Virus record (IMG/VR): IMGVR_UViG_3300042374_001687
Span: 62,001-126,000 of that record
Reading direction: 5' to 3' (one strand)
From: a virus
DNA length: 64,000 nt
The notes below the pieces were generated by a model. That model was not told the origin of the DNA and made no database searches. It saw only the letters and a program-made list of their open reading frames with translations. This document shows positions 5,801 to 61,257 of the stretch, one piece after another. Positions within the stretch are counted from its first letter, which is position 1. Each line of letters starts with the position of its first letter. Both the position numbers and the translations under genes were made by a program.

Positions 5801-6427
5801 GTGGTTACAGTGCAATGCCCATCGGCCTCCCCCGCCCCCTTCAGGAGAGGCATGACTCTTGATGAAAACTTTGTTGATGACTTTAACTCCCAAGACTATG
5901 ACATAGAAATAAATGATTTGGGAATACCTTCCGAAATCAGAGTCGTAGTTCCAAAGTTCCCCGAAATTCAAGTCAAACACGACATACCGGAATTCATAAA
6001 TATCAAATCGGACTTGCCCGAAAGAATAGAACTTTATCAGTCTGACGCTTTGCCAAAAGAAATAAAGATTGTCAATGAAGCAGTCATACCTCAACAAATT
6101 AAGGTTGACGCAACAGAGATACCTAATTCAATAAAGCTGGACACAAGCTCTTTGCCTGGAGTGATAAGCTTGGTTCCCATAGATTTGCCCTCTGTGATAA
6201 GGATTGACGGATCTGAGATACCGGAAACGATAAAAGTTGTGGGCATACCGGAGTCTATTGAGGTGAGGATGCCCAGCGAGATAGTTGCACGACTTGAAAT
6301 CCCAGAAAACCTAGAAATACCACTCGTTTACAGGGGAGGTCCTGTCCCTGTACAGTTTGACTCATCAAATTTGCTGGGAGGGGACGAACAAGCTTGTTTC
6401 GCCCTTGTTCCTTGCAATAAAAAATGA
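2828..6427 (+). CDS. Giant repeat fibre protein with PKD domain
   Basis: A 1199-residue modular protein. In order: an N-terminal domain shared with the upstream gene; two GGSGY-containing beta repeats (about residues 75-150); a PKD domain with DFGDGQ (about 255-295); a Pro/Ile linker; about 45 tandem copies of a 13-residue repeat (about 393-990); and a C-terminal region of looser IPxxIkV-type repeats (about 1015-1170). There are almost no Cys in the repeats, and aromatic-Gly and Pro positions are strictly periodic, as in extended fibre shafts. A TAGATAC box lies at 2807-2813. A long tail or baseplate fibre is the most likely role; this is inference. Confidence 0.75.
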   Translation: MPTGFPPQPTFPLAIDSDRTLFLVYNTSEAKTIKENPAWSEEIEIEPVRPDQQEIWADNGFANISGEMFYYDAVEKNEVVGSGAVIGQVKVNEDGSLVSVSVLNGGSGYKVPAIKVLGAGTGAKVKANVVDGSIRSIEVVRGGSGYNENGLTFQFEGKVFKLKRCARGLGGKPTKFNPAGSWVRGFVIAEHHNQLVDATLAVEQYIFEIEESITKLENEPVCLDDAYCVDVVLETNVLTGGSPNCEGTTIEYFITINGTFDTFNLDFGDGQSTTSTQSGTHTYAAGAVIDPIVTVISPDCTVVQTPITRSTSKVPEVPTGPDPFIVPIPQVPAFPNITIPQINQTPQIELPQIIFPCLDINPISFPSIVIPAPSITINVPSFGPFPGFVPTVTFGPAPQVGPASFTFGPAPQVGPASFFFGPAPSVGPASFTFGPAPSVGPASFEFGPAPSVGPASFSFGPAPSVSPASFTFGPAPKISPASFTFGPAPKISPASFGFGPAPKMSPASFSFGPAPKIAPASFNFGPAPKISPASFNFGPAPKISPASFGFGPAPKISPASFGFGPAPKISPASFDWGKAPKVEGASFNWGKAPKVDASFNWGKAPKVEGASFYWGKAPKVEGASFNWGKAPKVEGASFNWGKAPKVDASFNWGKAPKVEGASFYWGKAPKVEGASFNWGKAPKVEGASFNWGKAPKVDASFNWGTPPKIDGASFNWGKPPKVEGGSFNWGTPPKIDGASFNWGKPPKVEGGSFNWGTPPKIDGASFNWGTPPKIDGASFNWGTPPKVEGTSFNWGTPPKIEGASFNWGTPPKIEGSSFNWGTPPKVEGASFNWGTPPKVEGASFNWGTPPKLEASFSWGTPPKVEGASFSWGTPPKVEGASFSWGTPPKVEGASFSWGTPPKVEGASFSWGTPPKIEGASFTWGTPPKIEGASFTWGTPPKIEGASFTWGSAPTATGSFTWGNPPEVSGSFTWGNPPEVTVSWGTAPTVECVVTVQCPSASPAPFRRGMTLDENFVDDFNSQDYDIEINDLGIPSEIRVVVPKFPEIQVKHDIPEFINIKSDLPERIELYQSDALPKEIKIVNEAVIPQQIKVDATEIPNSIKLDTSSLPGVISLVPIDLPSVIRIDGSEIPETIKVVGIPESIEVRMPSEIVARLEIPENLEIPLVYRGGPVPVQFDSSNLLGGDEQACFALVPCNKK
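4006..5790 (+). repeat. Tandem 39-bp (13-residue) coding repeat array
   Basis: About 45 in-frame units. The first 14 follow xFGPAPxxxPASF; from about 4549 on they follow xWGKAPKVEGASF and then xWGTPPKxEGASF. A few units are 12 residues long (ending DASF or EASF). Neighbouring units are nearly identical in DNA, with a higher-order block of several units duplicated around 4600-4930, which shows recent unequal exchange. The end of the array is degenerate (SAPTATGSF, NPPEVSGSF). Confidence 0.95.
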
Positions 6428-7564: not shown

Positions 7565-7922
7565 TGTCGGAATTTCTTCTGAGCATAGTTGAACTTTTTG
7601 TGACAAGAGCCTCTTTGTTTATATATGTAGAGGGCACATAACCAGAGAACTGGCTTATTGGCAAGTGAGAGTATCCTCTTTTTCTCAAGGAAGACTTGAG
7701 ATCGTCAAAGGAGTCGGCGGACTCTATGAATAATTCATATTGCATTCTGTTGTCGTAAGCCTCTTTGGCAATTGCAGAGCCAATCTGGGGGTTGAGGTTT
7801 AATTTATCTACATCGTTGATCCTTGTGGCATAAACCTTTTGGTCAAATGCGAAGGCGCTTATGACTTTTATGCCCTTTTTGTCCAGTCGCGCAAGATACA
7901 CATACAGATTACTTTTTGCCAT
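7554..7922 (-). CDS. Hypothetical protein
   Basis: A 122-residue protein with an N-terminal strand pattern (NLYVYLARLDKKGIKVISAF) and a charged C-terminus. No family was recognised. Its ATG lies inside the end of the upstream small gene (7909-8043), so the pair is translationally coupled. Confidence 0.6.
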   Translation of the reverse strand: MAKSNLYVYLARLDKKGIKVISAFAFDQKVYATRINDVDKLNLNPQIGSAIAKEAYDNRMQYELFIESADSFDDLKSSLRKRGYSHLPISQFSGYVPSTYINKEALVTKSSTMLRRNSDIKR

Positions 7923-8043
7923 TAATTAACTCCGCAAGCAATTCTTCCAAAATTATCTGGGTGTAGATATCCATATCCCCAAATTGCTCCATGAAGTCCT
8001 TCATTGCCTCTCCGACTTCATTTTTTTCAATTTCTTGATTCAT
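7909..8043 (-). CDS. Small acidic helical protein
   Basis: A 44-residue reading frame (starts MNQEIEKNEVGEAMKDF, ends LLAELINGKK). It is acidic and probably helical. It overlaps the start of the downstream gene by 14 bases on the same strand, an arrangement typical of coupled phage genes. Too short to classify. Confidence 0.5.
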   Translation of the reverse strand: MNQEIEKNEVGEAMKDFMEQFGDMDIYTQIILEELLAELINGKK

Positions 8044-8135
8044 AAATCACCTAGAAGGGTCAGACTAAGCGACCCAATTATATTGGCCCGGGAATGCACT
8101 ATATACTATTGCCTTTCACTTAAAAGAGGGAACCC

Positions 8136-8687
8136 ATGAGCGTTTTTAGAGTAAAACTCACAAATACTAGGCAAGGCCTTTTGGATGTTTACGACAATCA
8201 ACGAACAGCCTACATAACAGGCCCCAACAGGATAAACAGAAAGCTCAAGGACGGGGAAACCTTTGTGGATTGCAATTATTGGAAGAGGTTTGCCTATCCA
8301 AATGTGCCCTTGGAGGAGGCCTTCATAGAAGTGGTTGAGGATGACGGCACCATCTACAGTGACAAAATATCCGAAAACACCTATCCCAAGGTTTACGATC
8401 TGATTGCAGTTACAGGATCAACCTATGCGGACAACAAGGCCGACATAGTCAAAGACTCGGGAAGTTGGGCCCTTTTTGCCCAGATAACAAACAAAAGCGA
8501 TTCCGACGGGGTCAAGGTAAGGCTCAATGGATTGAACACGGCAATAATAGATCTTCCTGCCGGTAGCACTCAAGTTTTCAGCGTCGGAGATTTGACAATA
8601 GGCTCAATAGAGGTAGATAACGGCTCTGGATCGGCCGACGTGCAGGTTCAAATACTAGTATCGGTGAGTTCCATCGGAACTTCATGA
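8136..8687 (+). CDS. Probable small virion protein
   Basis: A 183-residue protein. The first half contains charged and aromatic segments (NYWKRFAYP). The second half is a Ser/Gly/Asp-rich beta region ending in alternating hydrophobics (DVQVQILVSVSS), typical of small structural proteins. An AAGAGGGAA Shine-Dalgarno precedes the ATG, and an ACTATATACT promoter-like box is at 8098-8107. It heads a plus-strand run through 10678. No family recognised. Confidence 0.65.
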   Translation: MSVFRVKLTNTRQGLLDVYDNQRTAYITGPNRINRKLKDGETFVDCNYWKRFAYPNVPLEEAFIEVVEDDGTIYSDKISENTYPKVYDLIAVTGSTYADNKADIVKDSGSWALFAQITNKSDSDGVKVRLNGLNTAIIDLPAGSTQVFSVGDLTIGSIEVDNGSGSADVQVQILVSVSSIGTS

Positions 8688-8995: not shown

Positions 8996-10015
8996 ATGTC
9001 AGCACGCGGATTCGATTGCGGTACCTATAATCTGGTTTGTTGTAAGCGTACTGCCGAGAATGAATTTTCGTACAAGAGAGAGGTGAACGCCTTTTTGCAG
9101 ATGCCCTTGGAAAACCGCTTCGTCTTCAATATGATGAAGAACGCCGGCGTGCCCTTGATAGAGCAGCCCGAAGCGAACTTGGCGTATGCCCTCGGCGAGT
9201 CGGCGGTCAACATGGCATACACCATGAACCAAATTGAATTGAAGCGCCCGATGAAGGATGGCTGCCTCAATCCGAAGGAAAGATACGCACAGCAGATCAT
9301 GAATGTGATGTGCCACAGTCTCATAGGAGAGGTGGAGGAGGATGGAACTCCCTTGTACTACTCGGTTCCCGCAAATGCCATAAACCAAGAGACGGACGCG
9401 GATTATCACGGAAAAGTCTTGGAGGCGATGTTCCGTTCCTACAAGAGTGAGAAGGGATACACTGTGGATCCGCATCCGATTAACGAGGCATTGGCTCTCG
9501 TCTATGCGGAACTTTCCAACAAGGCTTGGACCGGCGTGGGAATATCATTCGGTGCAGGAATGGTGAATCTTTGCTACGCGATGTACGGAGCCCCCATCTT
9601 CCAGTTTTCTATAGTAAACAGCGGCGACTGGATCGACAAGATGGCCTCCAAGGCCCTTGGGGAAGATACGACGACATATGTGAACAAAGAAAAAATGCAC
9701 GCGGACTTGACCGTGGAGAATCCCGAAAGCCTTGTGCAGCGAGCCATAAAGTCGCAGTACGAAATCATGATCCAGCATACCGTTTCGGGAATAAAGAAGG
9801 GCGTGGAAGAGGCCGGAAACAAGGCCCGTTCGGAACAGCCCATAGACATAGTGGTGGCGGGCGGAACCAGCATGCCCAAGGGTTTCGATGTCTTGTTCCG
9901 TAAGATTCTAGAGCAATCCAAGATTTCGATGAAGATAGGCGATGTAATCAGGCCCAGCGACCCGCTATACTCGGTGGCTCGTGGTTGCTTGATTGCCGCA
10001 GAAAACGCAAAGTAA
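8996..10015 (+). CDS. Actin/Hsp70-superfamily ATPase
   Basis: A 339-residue protein with the actin-fold signature blocks in the right order: phosphate-1 (FDCGTYN, residues 6-12), connecting-1-like (NEALALVY, 163-170), phosphate-2 (ISFGAGMVN, 183-191) and the adenosine motif (IVVAGGTSMPKG, 286-297). The length suits ParM/MreB-like actins and is far shorter than Hsp70, with no substrate-binding domain. An AAGGAG Shine-Dalgarno precedes the ATG. In phages and plasmids such proteins form filaments that move or segregate DNA, or act at the membrane. Which applies here is unknown. It lies in an operon with small unknown proteins on both sides. Confidence 0.85.
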   Translation: MSARGFDCGTYNLVCCKRTAENEFSYKREVNAFLQMPLENRFVFNMMKNAGVPLIEQPEANLAYALGESAVNMAYTMNQIELKRPMKDGCLNPKERYAQQIMNVMCHSLIGEVEEDGTPLYYSVPANAINQETDADYHGKVLEAMFRSYKSEKGYTVDPHPINEALALVYAELSNKAWTGVGISFGAGMVNLCYAMYGAPIFQFSIVNSGDWIDKMASKALGEDTTTYVNKEKMHADLTVENPESLVQRAIKSQYEIMIQHTVSGIKKGVEEAGNKARSEQPIDIVVAGGTSMPKGFDVLFRKILEQSKISMKIGDVIRPSDPLYSVARGCLIAAENAK

Positions 10016-37205: not shown

Positions 37206-38633
37206 ATGCAAGCAAATGCAAAGTTCCTAAATGAAGCAAGGGAGCTGGAATCTCGTTGGGCGCAAACAGGTTTGCTAGAGAACATAAGCGACAAGTACAC
37301 ACGTTCTTGCACTGCCGTTCTCCTCGAAAACCAGCGTCTCATCAACGAGAACTCGACCGACTCGGGCGACGTCGCCCAGTTCAAGAGGATCTCGATTCCG
37401 CTCGTCCGTAGAATTTACCCCCAGCTGATCGCCAACAAGGTGGTCTCGGTTCAGCCGTTGCTCGGCCCGACCGGCCTCGTCTATTACCTCCGTTTTAGAT
37501 ACGGCAGCAACAAGGGCAGCGTCCGTGGAGCCACCAAGAGCGGCTTCCCCACAGACGACGCCAACTCGCTCCAGCAGCTCGCCAGCGGCGATGCCAACCT
37601 GAGCGTCTACTACTCGCACCAGTTCGTTGAGAACGAGACGAGTGCCACAGACGCCGGCGGCACCAGCACCAGCGTGACGCTTGAGCACACCCCGGTTCTC
37701 GCCGGAACCGTGACCGGCACCGTCTATGACGGTGACGTCGCCGTCCAGACCTTCGTGGTCTCGGAAAGCGGCTCGTTCACGTTCCACGACATCGGATCGC
37801 CCTCGGCCAAGGTCACCAGCGCCACGCTGAACCTGACCACAGGCGAGATGGGCCTGACTTGGAACAGCGACCCGGGTGCCAACCATGTTACCGTCTCGTA
37901 CGAGTACAACATGGAATGCAACCAGGACCTCCCCGAAATCAACCTCGTTGTTGAGTCGGAAGAGATCGCCGCCAAGACCCGCAAGTTGAAGGCCGTGTGG
38001 AGCTACGAGGCCCAGCAGGACCTCCGCAGTCAGCACAACCTCGACGCCGAGGCCGAGCTCACAGCCGTTCTGGCTCAAGAGATCAACCTCGAGATCGACC
38101 GTGAAGTTCTCAGCGACCTCCGCAACAACGCGGGCACAGTCGCCTCGTGGGACTTCAATACCGCCCTTGGTGATACCATCAAGGAAAAGTATGAGTCGCT
38201 CTACGTCAAGGTCGTCGAAGTCAGCAACGTGGTGCATCGCAAGACGCTCCGCGGCGGCTGCAACTGGCTCGTCACCAGCCCCGAAGTTGCCTCGATCTTC
38301 GAGACAGCCACCGCTGGTTTCGCTCCGGCCCCCTCGGAAGGCTTCACATCGTCGCTCGGCATCCAGTATGTCGGCACCGTGAACAACCGTTGGAGACTCT
38401 ACAAGGATCCGCTGTTCCCGACGGGACAGATCCTCATGGGTTACAAGGGTGACTCGTACATGGACAGTGGTTACTTCTACTGCCCGTACGTGCCGCTTAC
38501 CCAGACGCCAGTCGTGCTCGATCCCGAGTCCTTCTGCCCGCGTAAGGGAATACTTACCCGCTATGGTAAGAAGCTCCTCCGCGAAGGCGCGAAGTTCTAC
38601 GCCAGACTCAGCGTTGCTAATTTTGTGATTTAG
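37206..38633 (+). CDS. Major capsid protein (T4 gp23-like)
   Basis: A 475-residue capsid protein. The segment RISIPLVRRIYPQLIANKVVSVQPLLGPTG matches the start of mature gp23, and an upstream L-I-N-E at about residues 45-48 is a likely maturation site. An insertion of about 100 beta-rich residues (about 140-240, from TSATDAGG to the YEYNMECN segment) sits where gp23 relatives carry variable surface domains. Codon use is the most GC-rich in the window, suggesting strong expression. AAGGAG precedes the ATG and a terminator follows. Confidence 0.93.
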   Translation: MQANAKFLNEARELESRWAQTGLLENISDKYTRSCTAVLLENQRLINENSTDSGDVAQFKRISIPLVRRIYPQLIANKVVSVQPLLGPTGLVYYLRFRYGSNKGSVRGATKSGFPTDDANSLQQLASGDANLSVYYSHQFVENETSATDAGGTSTSVTLEHTPVLAGTVTGTVYDGDVAVQTFVVSESGSFTFHDIGSPSAKVTSATLNLTTGEMGLTWNSDPGANHVTVSYEYNMECNQDLPEINLVVESEEIAAKTRKLKAVWSYEAQQDLRSQHNLDAEAELTAVLAQEINLEIDREVLSDLRNNAGTVASWDFNTALGDTIKEKYESLYVKVVEVSNVVHRKTLRGGCNWLVTSPEVASIFETATAGFAPAPSEGFTSSLGIQYVGTVNNRWRLYKDPLFPTGQILMGYKGDSYMDSGYFYCPYVPLTQTPVVLDPESFCPRKGILTRYGKKLLREGAKFYARLSVANFVI

Positions 38634-38704: not shown

Positions 38705-39883
38705 TCATTCATATGGTTTGTGCGTAACCACGACTTCCTTTTTGCCCAATATGTCAAGAAGATTGATGCCTAGAGCATGGATGTCTTTCTTCAAAAAAAT
38801 ATTGTACTCAATATTAGGATTATTTTTGACATATTCTCTTGCGCAATCGTACTTCATCTGGGTCTCCAGACTATCGTGAAGATAATCCGCTTTGATTTCG
38901 CAAAGAGACAAAACTGAATTGTTTTGATACTTGACCAAGAAGTCAGGAAAATAAAGACCGATATTGCCATTGTCTTTCTTGTAGGGAATACAGAAGGGTT
39001 CATAATCGTACCATTCAACCAATTCTGAATGATCCAAGTGCCAATGGTAAATCAATTCAAATCCAGACCTGAACATGGGATTGGACTTCTTGCACTTTAT
39101 AGAATCGTAATTACCCCGCCAAGTGTTCTTGTGCCCAGCATTCCATTTTCCTTGAAGTATTAGTTCAGTTATGGTTTCCCTCTGCTTCTGGTTCCACTCC
39201 TCCGGCCTGACGATACCCTTTGCCCAAGGGTTCGCCCACGACTCGGCCAGCCACTCCTTGCAGTTCTCACGGAGGTAGTCCTTCATCTCCGGCAATTGGT
39301 TGTAGTGTTCTACTCCGTAGCGCTGGAGGGTGGTCTGAGCCATCTTTACCCTGACCTCGGGGGCTTGGGCGGCGTTCTCGACCCCATAGCGCTCTAAGTT
39401 GGTCTTCCTTGCTTTCTTCTTAATCTCCTCGGCTTGCATGGGATTGTCTACGCCGTATTTATCTTGCACGGTTTGTCGCTGACGCTCCTTGGTCTCGTCA
39501 AGGTGCATGGGGTGTTCCACCCCGTACCTCTCCAAGGATGTCTGCCGGTGCTTCTCCACCCACTGCTTCTTAAAGTCCTCATCCTTGAACTTCGCTTTCC
39601 TTTTTTCCACAAGTTCCTTCTTGTTCATGGGCATTTCCGTGCCGTACTTCTTGAGGCAGGTCTTCTTGGCCTTCTCCTTGATTTCCTTTTTTTTCATGGG
39701 ATTCTTGCTCTTGAGGAAGCACTTGCGACATATGTGCTTTCCCTCGTTATCCCTGAAGTTCTTCTCGGCGTAGCGGAGTTTGAGCATCCGTTCACGCCCG
39801 CATTCATCAAAGCCCCCGTCGCAGTCATACTTGATCTTGACCTCGTGGCCCGGCAGTTTGCCCTCAATTTTTTCTAAATACAT
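38705..39883 (-). CDS. Homing-endonuclease-like protein with NUMOD-type repeats and PD-(D/E)XK end
   Basis: A 392-residue protein. A Cys-containing N-terminus is followed by at least five copies of a unit like ERYGVEHPMQ...K.. (about residues 80-200), a DNA-binding repeat common in phage homing enzymes. The C-terminus has YFPDFLVKY ... LCEIKADYL, a PD-(D/E)XK-type nuclease core. It lies immediately after the capsid gene terminator on the opposite strand, a classic place for a selfish gene. Confidence 0.75.
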   Translation of the reverse strand: MYLEKIEGKLPGHEVKIKYDCDGGFDECGRERMLKLRYAEKNFRDNEGKHICRKCFLKSKNPMKKKEIKEKAKKTCLKKYGTEMPMNKKELVEKRKAKFKDEDFKKQWVEKHRQTSLERYGVEHPMHLDETKERQRQTVQDKYGVDNPMQAEEIKKKARKTNLERYGVENAAQAPEVRVKMAQTTLQRYGVEHYNQLPEMKDYLRENCKEWLAESWANPWAKGIVRPEEWNQKQRETITELILQGKWNAGHKNTWRGNYDSIKCKKSNPMFRSGFELIYHWHLDHSELVEWYDYEPFCIPYKKDNGNIGLYFPDFLVKYQNNSVLSLCEIKADYLHDSLETQMKYDCAREYVKNNPNIEYNIFLKKDIHALGINLLDILGKKEVVVTHKPYE

Positions 39884-39903
39884 ATTGATTTCTCCGATTG
39901 ATT

Positions 39904-39913
39904 GACTATTATA
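39904..39913 (+). promoter_or_regulatory. Putative phage promoter box GACTATTATA
   Basis: TTGACTATTATATATG ends five bases before the ATG at 39922, combining the GACTATAATA type and the start-proximal TATATA type of box. Confidence 0.4.
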
Positions 39914-39921
39914 TATGTAGT

Positions 39922-41466
39922 ATGACAGACATAAAAAATCAATATCAAATGGCCAATATAATAGTGCTTGATGAAATCAAGGAACCTACATGGATGAAAA
40001 GGACGCTGGCGGCCGAGAGGGTAGCGAATCCGAATACATTCATCTTTTTCAGGCACGAATGGAACGAGCGTTCGGAGCATATACTTTCACACATCAATTC
40101 CTATTCGCAGGATCGGTTCAAAATACATGCACGAAAGTGCACCGTCAAAAAGATCAGGTCTAAGCAGCATAGGGATTTTTGCGACCTCCACCACATCCAA
40201 GGATCAAACAAACTAACCCTCTCTGCGTTCGGGATATTTTTAGGCGACGATCTTCTGGGCGTTCTGTCGCTCGGAAGGCATAACAGAGACAGCAAGGCGA
40301 CTGTGCTTGATCGTCTGTGTTTTAAGGCGGGGTGGCGGGTTGTGGGTGGAGCCAGCAGACTTTTCTCCGCCGCCAAGAAATGGGCCTTGGAGAACGGCAT
40401 CTATTCCATAGTCAGTTTCAGCGACAACAGAATGAGCCTGGGTACGGTTTACGAAAGGCTAGGTTTTGAGATTGATTGCGAACTGCCTCCCGATTACATC
40501 TACATCAAGGCTGACGACCCCGGCGTCGCCTTCAGCAAACAGAGCCAGCGCAAGAAAGTCACCGGATGTCCTTCCGATGTGACCGAGAAGGAGTGGGCAA
40601 GCAGGCAGGGCCTTGTTCAGGCTTTCGACGCCGGAAAGAAGAGGTGGTTGCTCAAACTCCGATTGCACAAAGAAGTGCCGTTGAAGAGCAGGAGGCAGGG
40701 ATATTACGAGACGAAAAAGGCCAACCCTAGGGTTTTGTACTACCAGTCCAGCTACGAACTGAAAGCGGCAACCATATTGGACGAGATGGACGATGTGAAT
40801 TCTTACATTAGCCAGCACACTTTCACGATGGACGGAAGGGAGAGGGTAACTGATTTCATAGTAACATGGAAGGACGGATCAAAAACCATACTTGAAATCA
40901 AGCCGGAAAGGAGGATTGAACAGTTCAGAGAGCAGATAGGGGACAACAAGGAGTACGCTAGGCGGAACGGGTGGAAGTTCCAAATATGGACGGAGAAAGA
41001 ACTCGGATTCCAAACCGAGTATTTCGCGACCAAGTGGGCCGACGAGTTCATATCAAAGATCACCAAAGTAGACTTCGTTCAAGAGAGAAAGGACAGAAAT
41101 CTCACCAAGTCAAAGAAATACTATGCCGAGAAGATCGCCACCAACAAGGTCTCCGTCTTCTGCGAGTACTGCCAGACGACGCATGAGGCTCTTAGATTGA
41201 CTCACGACAAGAACATAGCCCGCAACGGCCGGTACATTTGTGAACGCGAGGGAGGGCATATAGCGGGCAGCAAGCCCAAGCTCCATCTCAGAAAGGACAA
41301 CCCCCATGCCGCCGATGGGAAGAAGCAGTGCTTGGGTTGCAAGCAAGTTCTATCCTTTGATAATTTCGGCACGGACAAGGTTCGTGCGGACGGGTACGCC
41401 AGCAAGTGCAAGGAGTGCAGGAGGAAGGCGGCGAACGAGAAATATGCCAAGAAGAAGGCTACTTGA
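39922..41466 (+). CDS. Homing-endonuclease-like protein: GNAT/Mom-like domain plus PD-(D/E)XK
   Basis: A 514-residue protein from the ATG at 39922. Residues of about 60-200 form a GNAT-like domain of the type seen in phage Mom-like proteins (GIFLGDDLLGVLSLG ... SRLFSAAKKWALENG ... YERLGFEIDCE). A nuclease core follows (VTDFIVTWKDGSKTILEIKPE), then two Cys-rich zinc-finger-like parts (CEYCQTTHE; CLGCKQVLSF ... CKECRRKA). The layout resembles large phage homing endonucleases. It is divergent from the other endonuclease-like gene. Confidence 0.7.
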   Translation: MTDIKNQYQMANIIVLDEIKEPTWMKRTLAAERVANPNTFIFFRHEWNERSEHILSHINSYSQDRFKIHARKCTVKKIRSKQHRDFCDLHHIQGSNKLTLSAFGIFLGDDLLGVLSLGRHNRDSKATVLDRLCFKAGWRVVGGASRLFSAAKKWALENGIYSIVSFSDNRMSLGTVYERLGFEIDCELPPDYIYIKADDPGVAFSKQSQRKKVTGCPSDVTEKEWASRQGLVQAFDAGKKRWLLKLRLHKEVPLKSRRQGYYETKKANPRVLYYQSSYELKAATILDEMDDVNSYISQHTFTMDGRERVTDFIVTWKDGSKTILEIKPERRIEQFREQIGDNKEYARRNGWKFQIWTEKELGFQTEYFATKWADEFISKITKVDFVQERKDRNLTKSKKYYAEKIATNKVSVFCEYCQTTHEALRLTHDKNIARNGRYICEREGGHIAGSKPKLHLRKDNPHAADGKKQCLGCKQVLSFDNFGTDKVRADGYASKCKECRRKAANEKYAKKKAT

Positions 41467-51350: not shown

Positions 51351-52072
51351 TGTAGGATAATGGTTGATTGGCTAGTTTTAATCAAATCAACATAGGTTAA
51401 ATTCCAATTCAAAATACATTTTTCTTTATTTTCATAGCCAACAAAATCATTCAAAGCATCAAGTATTTGTTTGTCCTCAACATTTTTCAAATCAAATAAA
51501 AGCCTACAGTACTCTGCCATTTGTTGCTCTGATTCAAACACCCAAGGGCAAGGGCGATTTTCTATGCCAACCACTTCTAGATTGGCTGGGTAATTCACAT
51601 CGTTCCAATCGTAATAGTTGCCATGGTGTGAGCCAGTAGAGGTATTTGAGCCTACAAATTCATCAAGAAATTTTGAAATTGAACTGTCCAATGCCACATC
51701 TGCCAAATGGATAGTTCCATTTTCAAGCAAATGATCGTTCATATTGTGCAAAAATAGATAAAGGTCGTCAATGTGATGGGCCGCGGCCAAACAAACTATT
51801 CGGTTGACCGGTTTGACCGGCCATTTTTCATATGGGGAAACAACATCAATTCCGTTAATTGATTTTGAAAAGTCCAAACAAATAACGGTGTTTTCAACGC
51901 AATATTTTTGCAAATAGCCACCCAAAGCAGGAATGTCCAATATCGTTTCATTCATACCTAATGGAACTTTTGAAAAAAGTTGTAGAAACTCCATGTCGCG
52001 CACCCAAGGAAACCTTTTCATGGCGGAATCATATGATTCGCCTCTGTGTCTGAATATGCTCTCGTAGTTCAT
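51347..52072 (-). CDS. SAM-dependent methyltransferase-like protein
   Basis: A 241-residue protein from the ATG at 52072, in an ATGA overlap with the PP-loop gene upstream. It has a class I methyltransferase layout: NETILDIPALGGYLQKY for motif I (with ALGG in place of the usual GxGxG), VICLDFS for motif II, and RIVCLAAAHHIDDLYLFL for motif IV/V. The altered motif I makes activity uncertain. Pairing with a QueC-like enzyme suggests nucleotide or nucleic acid modification. Confidence 0.65.
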   Translation of the reverse strand: MNYESIFRHRGESYDSAMKRFPWVRDMEFLQLFSKVPLGMNETILDIPALGGYLQKYCVENTVICLDFSKSINGIDVVSPYEKWPVKPVNRIVCLAAAHHIDDLYLFLHNMNDHLLENGTIHLADVALDSSISKFLDEFVGSNTSTGSHHGNYYDWNDVNYPANLEVVGIENRPCPWVFESEQQMAEYCRLLFDLKNVEDKQILDALNDFVGYENKEKCILNWNLTYVDLIKTSQSTIILH

Positions 52073-52677
52073 GTATTGCCTTTTATTTTTTTGATTTCCA
52101 TGCATGTTCTGCATCTTCCGCACTTCTTAATTTCATCTCCATAAATTGGGGTTCTACAACTCCAAGTCATTTTTATTAGTTCTTCTGGGAGCATTTCATA
52201 TATTTCTTCTTTAGTCATATCTCCAACGGGATATGTTTTTTCAACCCAAGGGGACAATGTTTTGAGTATTTTTGTCCCCCTATCGGCACGATCTAGTCCG
52301 CCGTCTGATTTGGTTCTTCCGATTGCCACCAATTCAATACTCTTAATGCTGAGGCATATTGTTCCTGCGATAAAGTTATACAAGTCACTATCCCACATAA
52401 AGTTGCCATCATGGCATGGGTATTCATGAAAACTATCGCTATAGGCAAAGTCTCTAATTTTTTTCATATATTTGACTATGTCTAAAACCGCTTTACTCTC
52501 TGCTTCGGCTCGATTTTCTTTGTTTTGCAAATGAAGATGATGAACATGGAGTGGTTCTTTGGTGTTCATTATTAGTTTCCAAAACGCACCGGTAGAATCC
52601 AATCCCCCTGAGAACATGATCAATATTTTTGGCTTCAAGATAATGCCCCTCGGAGCGTGGGTCAATTTTTCGTCCAT
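52069..52677 (-). CDS. QueC-like PP-loop enzyme (paralogue A)
   Basis: A 202-residue protein from the ATG at 52677. The ATP-pyrophosphatase loop is SGGLDST (23-29), and the C-terminus has a zinc-type Cys set (SCRTPI, then CGRCRTC), as in 7-cyano-7-deazaguanine synthase. QueC makes preQ0 from CDG for queuosine or for deazaguanine in phage DNA. No QueD, QueE, FolE or DNA-transglycosylase gene was seen nearby, so the exact reaction is open. A TATATAC box lies four bases before the ATG. Confidence 0.75.
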   Translation of the reverse strand: MDEKLTHAPRGIILKPKILIMFSGGLDSTGAFWKLIMNTKEPLHVHHLHLQNKENRAEAESKAVLDIVKYMKKIRDFAYSDSFHEYPCHDGNFMWDSDLYNFIAGTICLSIKSIELVAIGRTKSDGGLDRADRGTKILKTLSPWVEKTYPVGDMTKEEIYEMLPEELIKMTWSCRTPIYGDEIKKCGRCRTCMEIKKIKGNT

Positions 52678-52767
52678 GGAGGTATATATCCACAACGAAT
52701 CAAGGGAGTAAGCCGGCTGGCAATGCGAACATAAAAGATTTGAGAAGCACCATTTGGAAACATTGGA

Positions 52768-53397
52768 ATGGAAAGACCTGACACGCTGATCATGTTCTCC
52801 GGCGGACTTGACTCCACCGGGGTCTTCTGGAAGCTCATAAAATCAACAAAAAAACTCCATGTTCATCATCTGTATCTGGTCAACAAGGAGAACAGGGCGA
52901 AGGCCGAAGACAGAGCCGTTAGTGCTATCGTCGCCTACATGAAGAACATAAGGGAATTCGGATACTCGGAAAGCTATCACGAGTATCCTTCCTATAACGG
53001 CAACTTCATCTTTGACAGCGACATCTTCTCATTCATGGCGGGCTCCATATGCCTCAGCACGAAGACCATCAGAGAAGTGGCAATAGGCATGACCGCGTCC
53101 GACATGGGGTCTGGTCTGTCGGAGCGGGTGAATAGGGCGAACAAGATATTTGAGTCGTTCGGGACGAAGGCCCAAAAGGTCTATCCTCTGATGGACATGA
53201 CAAAGAAACAGATATATGAAATGCTCCCCGAGGACCTCCGCAACATGAGTTGGAGCTGTCGTACGCCGATCTACGAAGGTGATGAAATCAAGGAATGCGG
53301 AAGGTGCAGGACATGCAGGGAAATTAAGTTAATTGTCCCACACGACGATGGCAATGTCGGCTTGGGTGGGGATGACCCTACTCGCCCCGGGGAATGA
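52768..53397 (+). CDS. QueC-like PP-loop enzyme (paralogue B)
   Basis: A 209-residue protein with SGGLDST at 11-17 and the same C-terminal Cys set (SCRTPIY, CGRCRTC). It is clearly homologous along its length to the divergent gene 90 bases away, with many shared stretches (HEYP, NKENRA, ICLS, MLPE), but it is much more GC-rich in codon use. The last 20 residues overlap the opposite-strand gene and may be extra. Confidence 0.75.
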   Translation: MERPDTLIMFSGGLDSTGVFWKLIKSTKKLHVHHLYLVNKENRAKAEDRAVSAIVAYMKNIREFGYSESYHEYPSYNGNFIFDSDIFSFMAGSICLSTKTIREVAIGMTASDMGSGLSERVNRANKIFESFGTKAQKVYPLMDMTKKQIYEMLPEDLRNMSWSCRTPIYEGDEIKECGRCRTCREIKLIVPHDDGNVGLGGDDPTRPGE

Positions 53398-59052: not shown

Positions 59053-59186
59053 AAAAGAAGAAGAAAAAGAGCAAAAGTGGCGGACTGAAGATGGTGCTGA
59101 ACTCCAGCGGACAGCCGGTGTTTATCGGTTTCAAGGACTGGCTGGTCGCTCGGGGCAAGCTTGTTGAAGGCCAAGTCCAGACTTAA
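59049..59186 (+). CDS. Small basic protein
   Basis: A 45-residue frame coupled by ATGA to the gene before. It starts with a run of lysines and has an internal FKDWLVARGKLVEG that echoes the capsid-targeting leader. It overlaps the 3' end of the DnaJ-like gene by 56 bases on the other strand. Confidence 0.5.
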   Translation: MKKKKKKSKSGGLKMVLNSSGQPVFIGFKDWLVARGKLVEGQVQT

Positions 59187-59985
59187 TTTTTGCTGCCGTG
59201 CTTTCGTTTTCAAAAAGAAGGGCGTCTTCGGACTCTACCTCGCTCCTCCAGTTTTCGTTCATTTCTTTGTACTTCTCGGAAAGTTCCTCTGGGGCCGGCA
59301 TCTTTAGTCCGGATATCTCGACAAGCAAAGACCCCAATTCCCCGTGACCCTTGATTTCGTAAATATCGCCCACGCTTGTTCCGGGCTTTATGTGAAGTTT
59401 CCTAGGGCCGTAGAGTGTTTCCACCTCTATTATGCCGCCTTGAAGAGCTACAATTACCGGTATGGCTTCGTTGACAAGAAGCAGTCCGGCATCCTTGTTG
59501 GGCGAAGGCTTGTAACGCTCATGTTCCTTTATGGAATAGTGAACCTTTATGTCCTTTATGGATCCGCCTATCCTCTGTGCTTTGTGCAACTTAGAAACTG
59601 GTGACGCTTTTAAAAGCAACATTGGGGGTATCTTCTCCACCACCGTCAGGACATGAATGTTTGCCTTGGATGAAATATTCCTTTTGTCTGATATCATGGG
59701 AACGCTGGATATAACCTCTTGCCTCAGGTGTGTCTCCAAGGTCGTTCCGAATATTGCCTCCTCAAGAGATACTTGAACATGAAACTCAATCTTGTCTTCT
59801 TTTGGGGTTTCGTCTTCTTGCAAGGATGTAAGAAGTTTGTATGCCTCGTGTATCTTCAAGAATTTCTCAGGATCGCCGCCCTTGTCGGGGTGGTTCTCCT
59901 TGCTCATCTTCAGATATGCCTTTTTTATAGTCTCCTTGGGGTCGGAACTTATTCCTAGGATTTCATACGCTTCTTCAATAGTCAT
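59131..59985 (-). CDS. DnaJ-like co-chaperone
   Basis: A 284-residue protein. The J-domain covers residues 1-60 with HPD at 32-34 (ENHPDKGGDPEKF). There is no Gly/Phe region or zinc domain. The C-terminal region of about 65-235 has the DnaJ substrate-binding style (VSLEEAIFGTTLETHLRQEV, LYGPRKLHIKPGTSVGDIYEIKGHG). It would recruit host DnaK to phage proteins. The ATG has no Shine-Dalgarno and is preceded by TATATAAGAT. Confidence 0.88.
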   Translation of the reverse strand: MTIEEAYEILGISSDPKETIKKAYLKMSKENHPDKGGDPEKFLKIHEAYKLLTSLQEDETPKEDKIEFHVQVSLEEAIFGTTLETHLRQEVISSVPMISDKRNISSKANIHVLTVVEKIPPMLLLKASPVSKLHKAQRIGGSIKDIKVHYSIKEHERYKPSPNKDAGLLLVNEAIPVIVALQGGIIEVETLYGPRKLHIKPGTSVGDIYEIKGHGELGSLLVEISGLKMPAPEELSEKYKEMNENWRSEVESEDALLFENESTAAKIKSGLGLQQACPERPASP

Positions 59986-60002: not shown

Positions 60003-60045
60003 ATAAAAAAAGCCGGCCAGGTCATTTCTGACTCTGGCCGGCTTG
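60003..60045 (-). terminator. Intrinsic terminator of the ncRNA
   Basis: Minus strand: AAGCCGGCCAG / CTGGCCGGCTT with an inner GTCA-GAAA-TGAC tip, then seven T. It lies upstream of the DnaJ gene, so it ends transcription entering from 60.9 kb. Confidence 0.85.
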
Positions 60046-60877
60046 ATTTGGCGAAAGGATTTTGATCCACTCGTGGTTTAACAGAGGAATGAATCAATCA
60101 TTGAAGTCCGTCACTTAAAGCAGATCCCACAGGTTCCTTCCGCCTTTGGGCATTTTTAACCCACCGCGTTTGACCTGTGTGTGACAGTCGTGGTCTGTCC
60201 GTAAACTTGCTGACGGCCATGGATTTAGCCTTTCGCGCCAGATTCCGCCTGTAACCAGCGGTTGCCCTAGCGTGGAGGCGTATGTCCAACATGCTGACGA
60301 CTCGTTCCGTGCATTTGCCGCGACATTCCTGTTTTTTAACGTGTTCAGGCACCACGTCGTTTCTGGGGATTTTTTATCCCGGGCTCAACATCACTATGTT
60401 CCGTCGCCACGGATGCTCTGTGTTCACAGAGGGATTTCCATGAGAGACTGCTGGTTCAAATGGCTATCCCGTGATGCTCAAGGACCGTTACTCCGTTTTA
60501 TTTTGGGCTTGCCCACAAGGAGCAAGTGCGTTCCCGAACTGTGCGGAGGCGTTTTGAAAACATTTGGGCGAGTCTTCATTTCTGTCGGCTCGTCCTATCT
60601 GCCTTCTCATCCTTTCTACGAAGCCCGCCTTAGAGTTCCGAGTCCGACTCCTCCTTTTACGGTTTTGTCGGATCGTATGTGGTTCAGATGCACCTTTCGG
60701 AGCAGGAGCCACATCCCGGCCCATTCTGCGGGTTGGGCTTTTGTCAACGTGGAGATCTTTTGGACTCCATCGTATGACCCTAAGGCTTCATTTTTCACCG
60801 ATACCTTTTCGGTATCGGCAAGGACTTGGCTTAATTGTCAATGATCAGCTCAGCCATCGCGTTTCCGTGCGGCTGAT
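60003..60877 (-). ncRNA. Candidate giant structured noncoding RNA (about 0.9 kb)
   Basis: No convincing gene is seen in this span on either strand. On the minus strand there is a sigma-70-type promoter just upstream, at least three hairpins capped by GAAA-type loops, and a strong terminator at the end. The first hairpin begins at the predicted start (CAGCCGCACG, GAAA, CGCGATGGCTG). Another is CCGATACC / GGTATCGG with a GAAAA loop at 60797-60818. The terminator itself has GTCA-GAAA-TGAC at its tip. Length and phage setting are like the GOLLD and ROOL RNA classes. Class membership is a hypothesis. Confidence 0.55.
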
Positions 60878-60883
60878 GGGCTC

Positions 60884-60911
60884 AGTATACAAAGATCGGC
60901 ACGCGTTGCAA
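60884..60911 (-). promoter_or_regulatory. Sigma-70-type promoter for the ncRNA
   Basis: Minus strand: -35 TTGCAA (60906-60911), 16-base spacer, -10 TATACT (60884-60889). This puts the start of transcription near 60877. Confidence 0.5.
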
Positions 60912-60966
60912 GGGCCGGACGAAATTTTTTTTCGGATTGGTCGCAAACCCTTTTGGCAAAAGAAGA

Positions 60967-61257
60967 TCAGTCCTTATAGGGTATCCAGTGCTTCCGGGTA
61001 AATAGGAGGTTTGCGAAAAATCCACAAAATGCGCTCATGATATTGCTCGCATACGGAAGGGTGACATCCTGCATCGGGTTGATGAGGAAGCTCAGTCCCA
61101 AACTGATCCAGAAACTCGAGCATTCGTGGCAGAGGAGCATCCTTCTGATGTAGGGCACTCTTGCCACAAGGTTTCTAAACGGAACACTGGCCTCGGTGTC
61201 GCTCCACGCGTAGCACACCCCGAGGCTCGTGATGAGAAATAAAACGAGAGTGTTCAT
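60967..61257 (-). CDS. Small multi-pass membrane protein
   Basis: A 96-residue protein with three hydrophobic segments and a conserved-looking CHECSSFWISLGLSF motif. This resembles short phage and bacterial membrane proteins of the DUF1360 type (C-x-x-C-x-S-F-W). The family assignment is tentative. Its start overlaps the stop of the upstream gene by four bases. Confidence 0.65.
   Translation of the reverse strand: MNTLVLFLITSLGVCYAWSDTEASVPFRNLVARVPYIRRMLLCHECSSFWISLGLSFLINPMQDVTLPYASNIMSAFCGFFANLLFTRKHWIPYKD

Follow-up and report, generated by a model that had tools for sequence, protein, structure and literature searches.

GOLLD and ROOL are large RNAs of phages for which no protein partners are known; they were reported in 2025 to form RNA-only cages, the GOLLD cage being a 14-mer (PMC12286853). 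The cages are held by kissing loops and A-minor contacts, and interactions in these RNAs that were first found by covariation turned out to be intermolecular; both RNAs are often encoded near tRNA islands (PMC12286853). Other large structured RNAs with which a new candidate can be compared are OLE RNA, which is reported to act within a ribonucleoprotein (PMC9723947), the group II introns reported from phages (PMC12350094), and HEARO, an RNA adjoining a nuclease ORF (PMC9755519). The locus described here lies in a 64,000-nucleotide stretch of DNA (the whole of which is called the window) from a 143.6-kb IMG/VR virus record. On the minus strand of the window, a gene-free region at 60003–60881 very probably represents a real structured RNA gene of a class that is absent from Rfam 15.

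The gene-free region, its homologues and its ends

The region is flanked upstream by a gene for a 96-aa protein with no assigned function (60967–61257) and downstream by a gene for a J-domain protein with DnaJ and DnaJ_C domains (59131–59985), and all three lie on the minus strand. A first-pass annotation, made from the letters of the window, had described about 900 bases without a convincing gene on this strand and had read them as a structured noncoding RNA of 0.9 kb equipped with a promoter and a terminator of its own. A DNA pattern built from the window alone gave no match. Among 50 records searched at the DNA level, almost all of them major-capsid-protein relatives, a 251-kb phage record yielded the first colinear homologue; the alignment reaches from the promoter region as far as the U tract, with 62% identity in 994 columns. 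Three later DNA patterns, built from different conserved parts of the first or later alignments, were run on IMG/VR; two of them returned all six contigs, and the third returned five contigs with full-length copies that were already known. Covariance models R1 and R2 were built from part of the central domain (a 156-position model, short calibration), and one such model recovered the known members and a divergent one in a 343-kb phage record (E 3.5e-21), in which the terminator, the invariant blocks and the full length then became visible.

The resulting set comprises eight full-length members of 879–928 nt, namely the window and seven other IMG/VR phage records, all of them metagenomic contigs from one viral contig collection. 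Identity between lineages is 46–68% (falling to 46–51%), and three members are mutually 94–98% alike. Several matches were rejected: the pattern matches L112–L116 showed no homology to the RNA, nine pattern matches in bacterial genomes were due to chance, with no colinear homology, and a covariance-model match of 29.4 bits in a single genome among 395 from one phylum was taken as chance because it sits at the end of a protein gene without the flanking motifs. Searching three members against GenBank phages by blastn gave nothing credible, and model R2 found no match among seven huge-phage records of 462–735 kb.

The program-made ORF list contains a plus-strand ORF of 190 aa within the region (60272–60844). 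The alignment showed that stops interrupt all six frames in all eight homologues and that no frame is conserved. The absence of a gene noted in the first-pass annotation was thus borne out, and a coding signal, which it had named as evidence against its own reading, was looked for and no open frame conserved among the eight homologues was found.

The promoter-like pair proposed in that annotation consists of a −35 element, TTGCAA (60906–60911), and a −10 element, TATACT (60884–60889), separated by a 16-nt spacer, with a predicted start near 60877. A sigma-70-like pair occupies the same place as 60911–60884 in every homologue; each has a TTG-containing −35-like hexamer at the equivalent position, and the −10 versions are TATACT, TACAAT, TAGACT and TAAAAG. 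At the other end, the U-tailed intrinsic terminator (60003–60045; helix 35) comprises a hairpin at 60045–60008, with a stem of up to 17 pairs and an AGAAAU loop, followed by a U tract that runs down to 60003. It is recognisable in all eight homologues, its A-GAAA-U loop is invariant, and 10 pairs of its helix show changes on both sides in the eight-member alignment. The RNA gene itself can be delimited by this alignment and by covariation as running from a conserved GCCCATCA start through the whole terminator, a length of about 875–879 nt. At the sequence level, promoter and terminator thus accompany the RNA in all eight copies, as the annotation had proposed for the window, and independent transcription of the RNA is predicted from them.

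Consensus structure and covariation

The region 60003–60880 folded more stably than shuffled sequences on the minus strand (z = −7.2). The plus strand also folded fairly well (z = −4.2), so that folding alone is insufficient to settle the strand or the function. Once the last 70 nt, which contain the terminator, had been removed, the RNA strand was still more stable than its shuffled versions in each of seven members (z from −2.5 to −9.0), and in every one of them its z was below that of the opposite strand (−0.3 to −4.1).

In the eight-member consensus, including two pseudoknots, 92.0% of cells are paired, compared with 38–45% when the 3′ partners were slid by 1–3 columns. Changes on both sides were found at 131 pairs, compared with 34–45 in the slid controls and 62 ± 5 in the shuffled ones (0 of 500 shuffles reaching the observed number), and a six-member alignment gave a similar picture. 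Covariation analysis of homologues, one of the checks suggested in the first-pass annotation, gave a signal far above both controls, and together with the homologues themselves it strongly supports the 0.9-kb structured noncoding RNA. Comparative evidence also supports the structure, strand, boundaries and non-coding nature assigned to the RNA, and shows it, as a consensus prediction, to be a closed multi-domain fold in which about 35 helices are accompanied by numerous GNRA tetraloops and by two pseudoknots.

Read 5′ to 3′ on the minus strand, the structure begins with a hairpin (60850–60876) whose stem sequence varies by lineage and whose GNRA loop is GAAA in the window and GAGA in others. 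It is followed by an invariant block, UUGACAA (60835–60841), which the eight-member consensus predicts to be single-stranded. Helix 1, a long-range closing helix (60826–60822 with 60109–60105), encloses the multi-domain core (60105–60826); 95% of its cells are paired, and three of its five pairs show changes on both sides. Helix 2 is a hairpin with a GAAA or GAAAA loop (60796–60821) and six pairs changed on both sides. Consensus and covariation then define a 5′ domain of helices 3–9 (60627–60786), in which the GNRA loop of one hairpin swaps between GAAA, GCAA, GAGA and GUAA in seven of the eight members, and a central domain of helices 10–21 (60381–60626). The latter contains a hairpin capped by an invariant AGAAAU loop (60593–60568) and another with an invariant UGGCGA tip (60413–60400). 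The A-GAAA-U loop is therefore invariant in two hairpins, the terminator being the other one. Hairpin tips retain GNRA loops despite change in the stem sequences, and the GNRA-capped hairpins that had been remarked on in the window are indeed present on this strand.

The H-type pseudoknot PK1 (60328–60358) is formed by a hairpin at 60358–60338, whose loop nucleotides 60349–60346 pair with 60331–60328. In PK1, 97% of cells are paired and each of the four pairs has changed on both sides, the pairings being CCUG/CAGG, CUCA/UGAG and UCUG/CAGA, with CUCCUC/GAGGAG in G032. It is followed by a domain of helices 25–29 (60187–60324), whose tip loop is GUAA in five of the eight members, and by a domain of helices 30–32 (60110–60185) defined by consensus and covariation. 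The long-range pseudoknot PK2 (60050–60144) pairs 60144–60137 with 60057–60050, either within one molecule or between molecules; 89% of its cells are paired, but the changes are mostly one-sided, and PK2 is therefore less certain than PK1. Ahead of the terminator lies helix 34 (60063–60098), a hairpin of about 12 pairs with 96% pairing and six pairs changed on both sides. A candidate helix joining the 5′ and 3′ ends in the six-member consensus was dropped, as it disappeared with eight members, and a few further complementary segments showed too little covariation to be claimed.

Occurrence and genomic context

IMG/VR contains 384 relatives of the T4-like major capsid protein of the window (37206–38633, plus strand), which shares 78% identity with its counterpart in the 595-kb uncultured phage LR756511; the window is thereby placed in a large, widespread clade of huge phages. 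The T4-like major capsid proteins of three other large RNA-carrying records are 83–85% identical to that of the window, so that a single huge-phage clade accounts for at least four of the members. In the four shorter RNA-carrying contigs there is no major capsid protein gene, which may be only an effect of their being fragments. The RNA is patchily distributed: models R1 and R2 found no match in two records of the clade, of 532 and 595 kb.

The neighbours of the RNA differ between lineages and include the J-domain protein, DUF5122 beta-propeller proteins, a TnsA-like nuclease and an RNA ligase, implying that the RNA is not part of any single gene. A single close relative of the J-domain protein was found, in the syntenic record L002, where the gene order is that of the window and the body of the RNA is missing. 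In L002 the terminator and some 26 nt ahead of it are still present (5884–5990); the absent stretch of about 900 nt corresponds to 60066–60964 of the window, with a GATC word at both borders. This state is consistent with a deletion between short GATC words, and L002 would represent a natural loss (or pre-gain) state. As the terminator stands there without the RNA body between the same two genes, it can also end the upstream operon at this place. Absence from L002 and from the 532- and 595-kb clade records suggests that the RNA is not essential in general, and its behaviour is that of a dispensable gene complete in itself (a 'moron').

In two lineages, an ORF resembling TnsA and phage endonuclease I is situated upstream of the RNA in divergent orientation (L145, 6623–7354, minus strand; L144, 7685–8347, plus strand). 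It could be a mobility partner or could be there by chance, the latter because similar ORFs occur elsewhere in the window. Two neighbouring divergent ORFs of the window carry TnsA-like domains (38705–39883, minus strand; 39898–41466, plus strand), one of which also matches DUF7487 and the other Mom/acetyltransferase-like models. In the most divergent member, L143, an RNA ligase gene (7766–8485, plus strand) divergently adjoins the RNA.

Relation to known RNA families and possible roles

A cmscan search against all Rfam 15 families gave no match at curated thresholds and chance matches alone up to E = 10; the same search did detect a tRNA in L110. The GOLLD model RF02032, run on the eight records, reached at best 9.3 bits against a gathering threshold of 150, with no match at the RNA and no control genome above the cut-off, and the ROOL model RF03087 gave nothing at E ≤ 10 in the eight records or in the control genomes. 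The first-pass annotation had suggested that the RNA is either a GOLLD/ROOL member or a new class. Membership gained no support from the two Infernal models, neither of which matched at the RNA in a comparison that had no positive control, whereas a new class is supported by the lack of any Rfam 15 match beyond chance. No earlier description of the RNA class was found in the open-access literature, which was the literature covered, and the RNA would be the first representative of a class that Rfam lacks. It has the general features of a giant ornate phage RNA, being long, phage-encoded and noncoding, with extensive structure that covariation supports.

Like GOLLD, the RNA is phage-borne, about 0.8–0.9 kb long and rich in helices, with a conserved GAAA loop and a pseudoknot that joins a hairpin loop to a nearby linker (PMC12286853). 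Unlike GOLLD, it has no RF02032 match and no tRNA array, and its conserved blocks extend over the whole length, whereas in GOLLD the 3′ region is universally conserved and the 5′ region less so. No tRNA gene was found across the 143.6-kb record of the window or near five other members; a tRNA-Gly lies about 3.3 kb from the L110 member, the sole RNA copy examined with a tRNA within a few kb. With ROOL it shares large size, phage or prophage carriage, pseudoknots and the lack of an associated protein, but it is longer (879–928 nt, compared with 659 nt in one ROOL example and 574 positions in the model) and has neither an RF03087 match, in a search without a positive control, nor a tRNA island. 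OLE RNA is likewise large and ornate with conserved blocks, but is bacterial and has protein partners, and the present RNA has no Rfam match. Phage group II introns (PMC12350094) are also large structured RNAs in phage genomes; the present RNA differs in being intergenic, with its own promoter and terminator and no intron-model match. A likeness to HEARO is the nuclease-like ORF that adjoins the RNA in two lineages, but its product is a TnsA-like nuclease, no such neighbour was found in the other lineages, and there is no Rfam match.

The features above can be read in several ways. The reading that we tentatively favour, though we give it somewhat less than an even chance, is by analogy with GOLLD and ROOL an architectural, possibly self-assembling RNA scaffold that acts during infection. 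It is favoured by the multi-domain fold, the pseudoknots, the many GNRA loops and invariant A-rich blocks, the lack of a partner gene and the likeness to GOLLD and ROOL. A freestanding phage gene very probably encodes a large structured noncoding RNA of about 880–930 nt, with host-type sigma-70 transcription predicted to begin near 60877 and to stop at the hairpin at 60045–60003. On the favoured reading, during infection the RNA would act through its own three-dimensional architecture, like GOLLD and ROOL, by assembling itself into a scaffold or compartment, rather than serving as a message, cis-regulator or short antisense RNA. We prefer this scaffold to a reading, itself a substantial possibility of slightly lower standing, in which the same RNA class acts in trans as an RNA–protein particle or a ribozyme on a host or phage protein or on ribosomes, for example as a sponge, an inhibitor or a packaging RNA. 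The conserved single-stranded or lightly paired blocks (UUGACAA, GAACGC and GAAACGAC) and the twin invariant AGAAAU loops could be protein or ligand sites, and OLE RNA works within a ribonucleoprotein (PMC9723947), but across the lineages the RNA is not accompanied by any gene for a protein partner.

The remaining explanations are far less probable. A very divergent GOLLD or ROOL, beyond the reach of the Rfam covariance models and forming the same cage, would account for the comparable length, the presence in phages, the wealth of helices, the pseudoknots and the conserved A-rich loops (PMC12286853); the negative searches with the two models and cmscan, the full-length spread of conserved blocks and the single copy with a nearby tRNA make it improbable. 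Still less credible is a mobile catalytic RNA, such as a group I or II intron that lacks an ORF or some intron-like element, inserted between the 96-aa and J-domain genes. The body missing between two otherwise syntenic genes in L002, the lineage-specific neighbours, the TnsA-like nuclease adjoining the RNA in two lineages and the reported occurrence of group II introns in phages (PMC12350094) fit such an element. However, no Rfam group I or II intron model matched, the group II D1–D4 model RF01998 giving only sub-threshold matches away from the RNA; promoter and terminator are conserved at the ends of all eight copies, which lie between genes and not within one; and L002 retains the 3′ end of the RNA itself, which fits loss better than a clean insertion site. 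That both window neighbours are co-directional with the RNA would suit a cis-acting leader or untranslated region of these genes, a reading made very unlikely by the strong terminator before the J-domain gene and by the unrelated neighbours, often in other orientation, in other lineages. A degenerate protein gene, to which the 190-aa ORF might point, or chance folding is contradicted by the stops in six frames and by the 131 covarying pairs, and we regard it as scarcely credible.

To our knowledge, few noncoding RNAs near 0.9 kb have so much conserved structure, and those borne by phages have no known function. Returning to the architectural scaffold, we consider it conceivable, again at rather less than an even chance, that the RNA represents a third class of phage-borne RNA-only assembly, unrelated to GOLLD and ROOL in sequence and secondary structure. 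If so, several independent self-assembling RNA designs have been evolved or acquired by phages, and a third class in huge T4-like phages that seems unrelated to the other two would raise the question of whether phages have turned repeatedly to large RNAs that assemble themselves. The eight members, ranging from near-identical to 46% identity, with domains and pseudoknots mapped, are sufficient for the design of constructs for cryo-EM or probing.

Two other observations were made in the window. Two similar proteins with an SGGLDST motif (PP-loop, QueC-like) are encoded side by side on opposite strands (52069–52695, minus; 52768–53397, plus), as if duplicated, judging from their translations alone. 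In addition, the product of the ORF at 8996–10015 (plus strand) strongly matches the Pfam actin-like family Volactin (E 1.7e-64), here in a phage.
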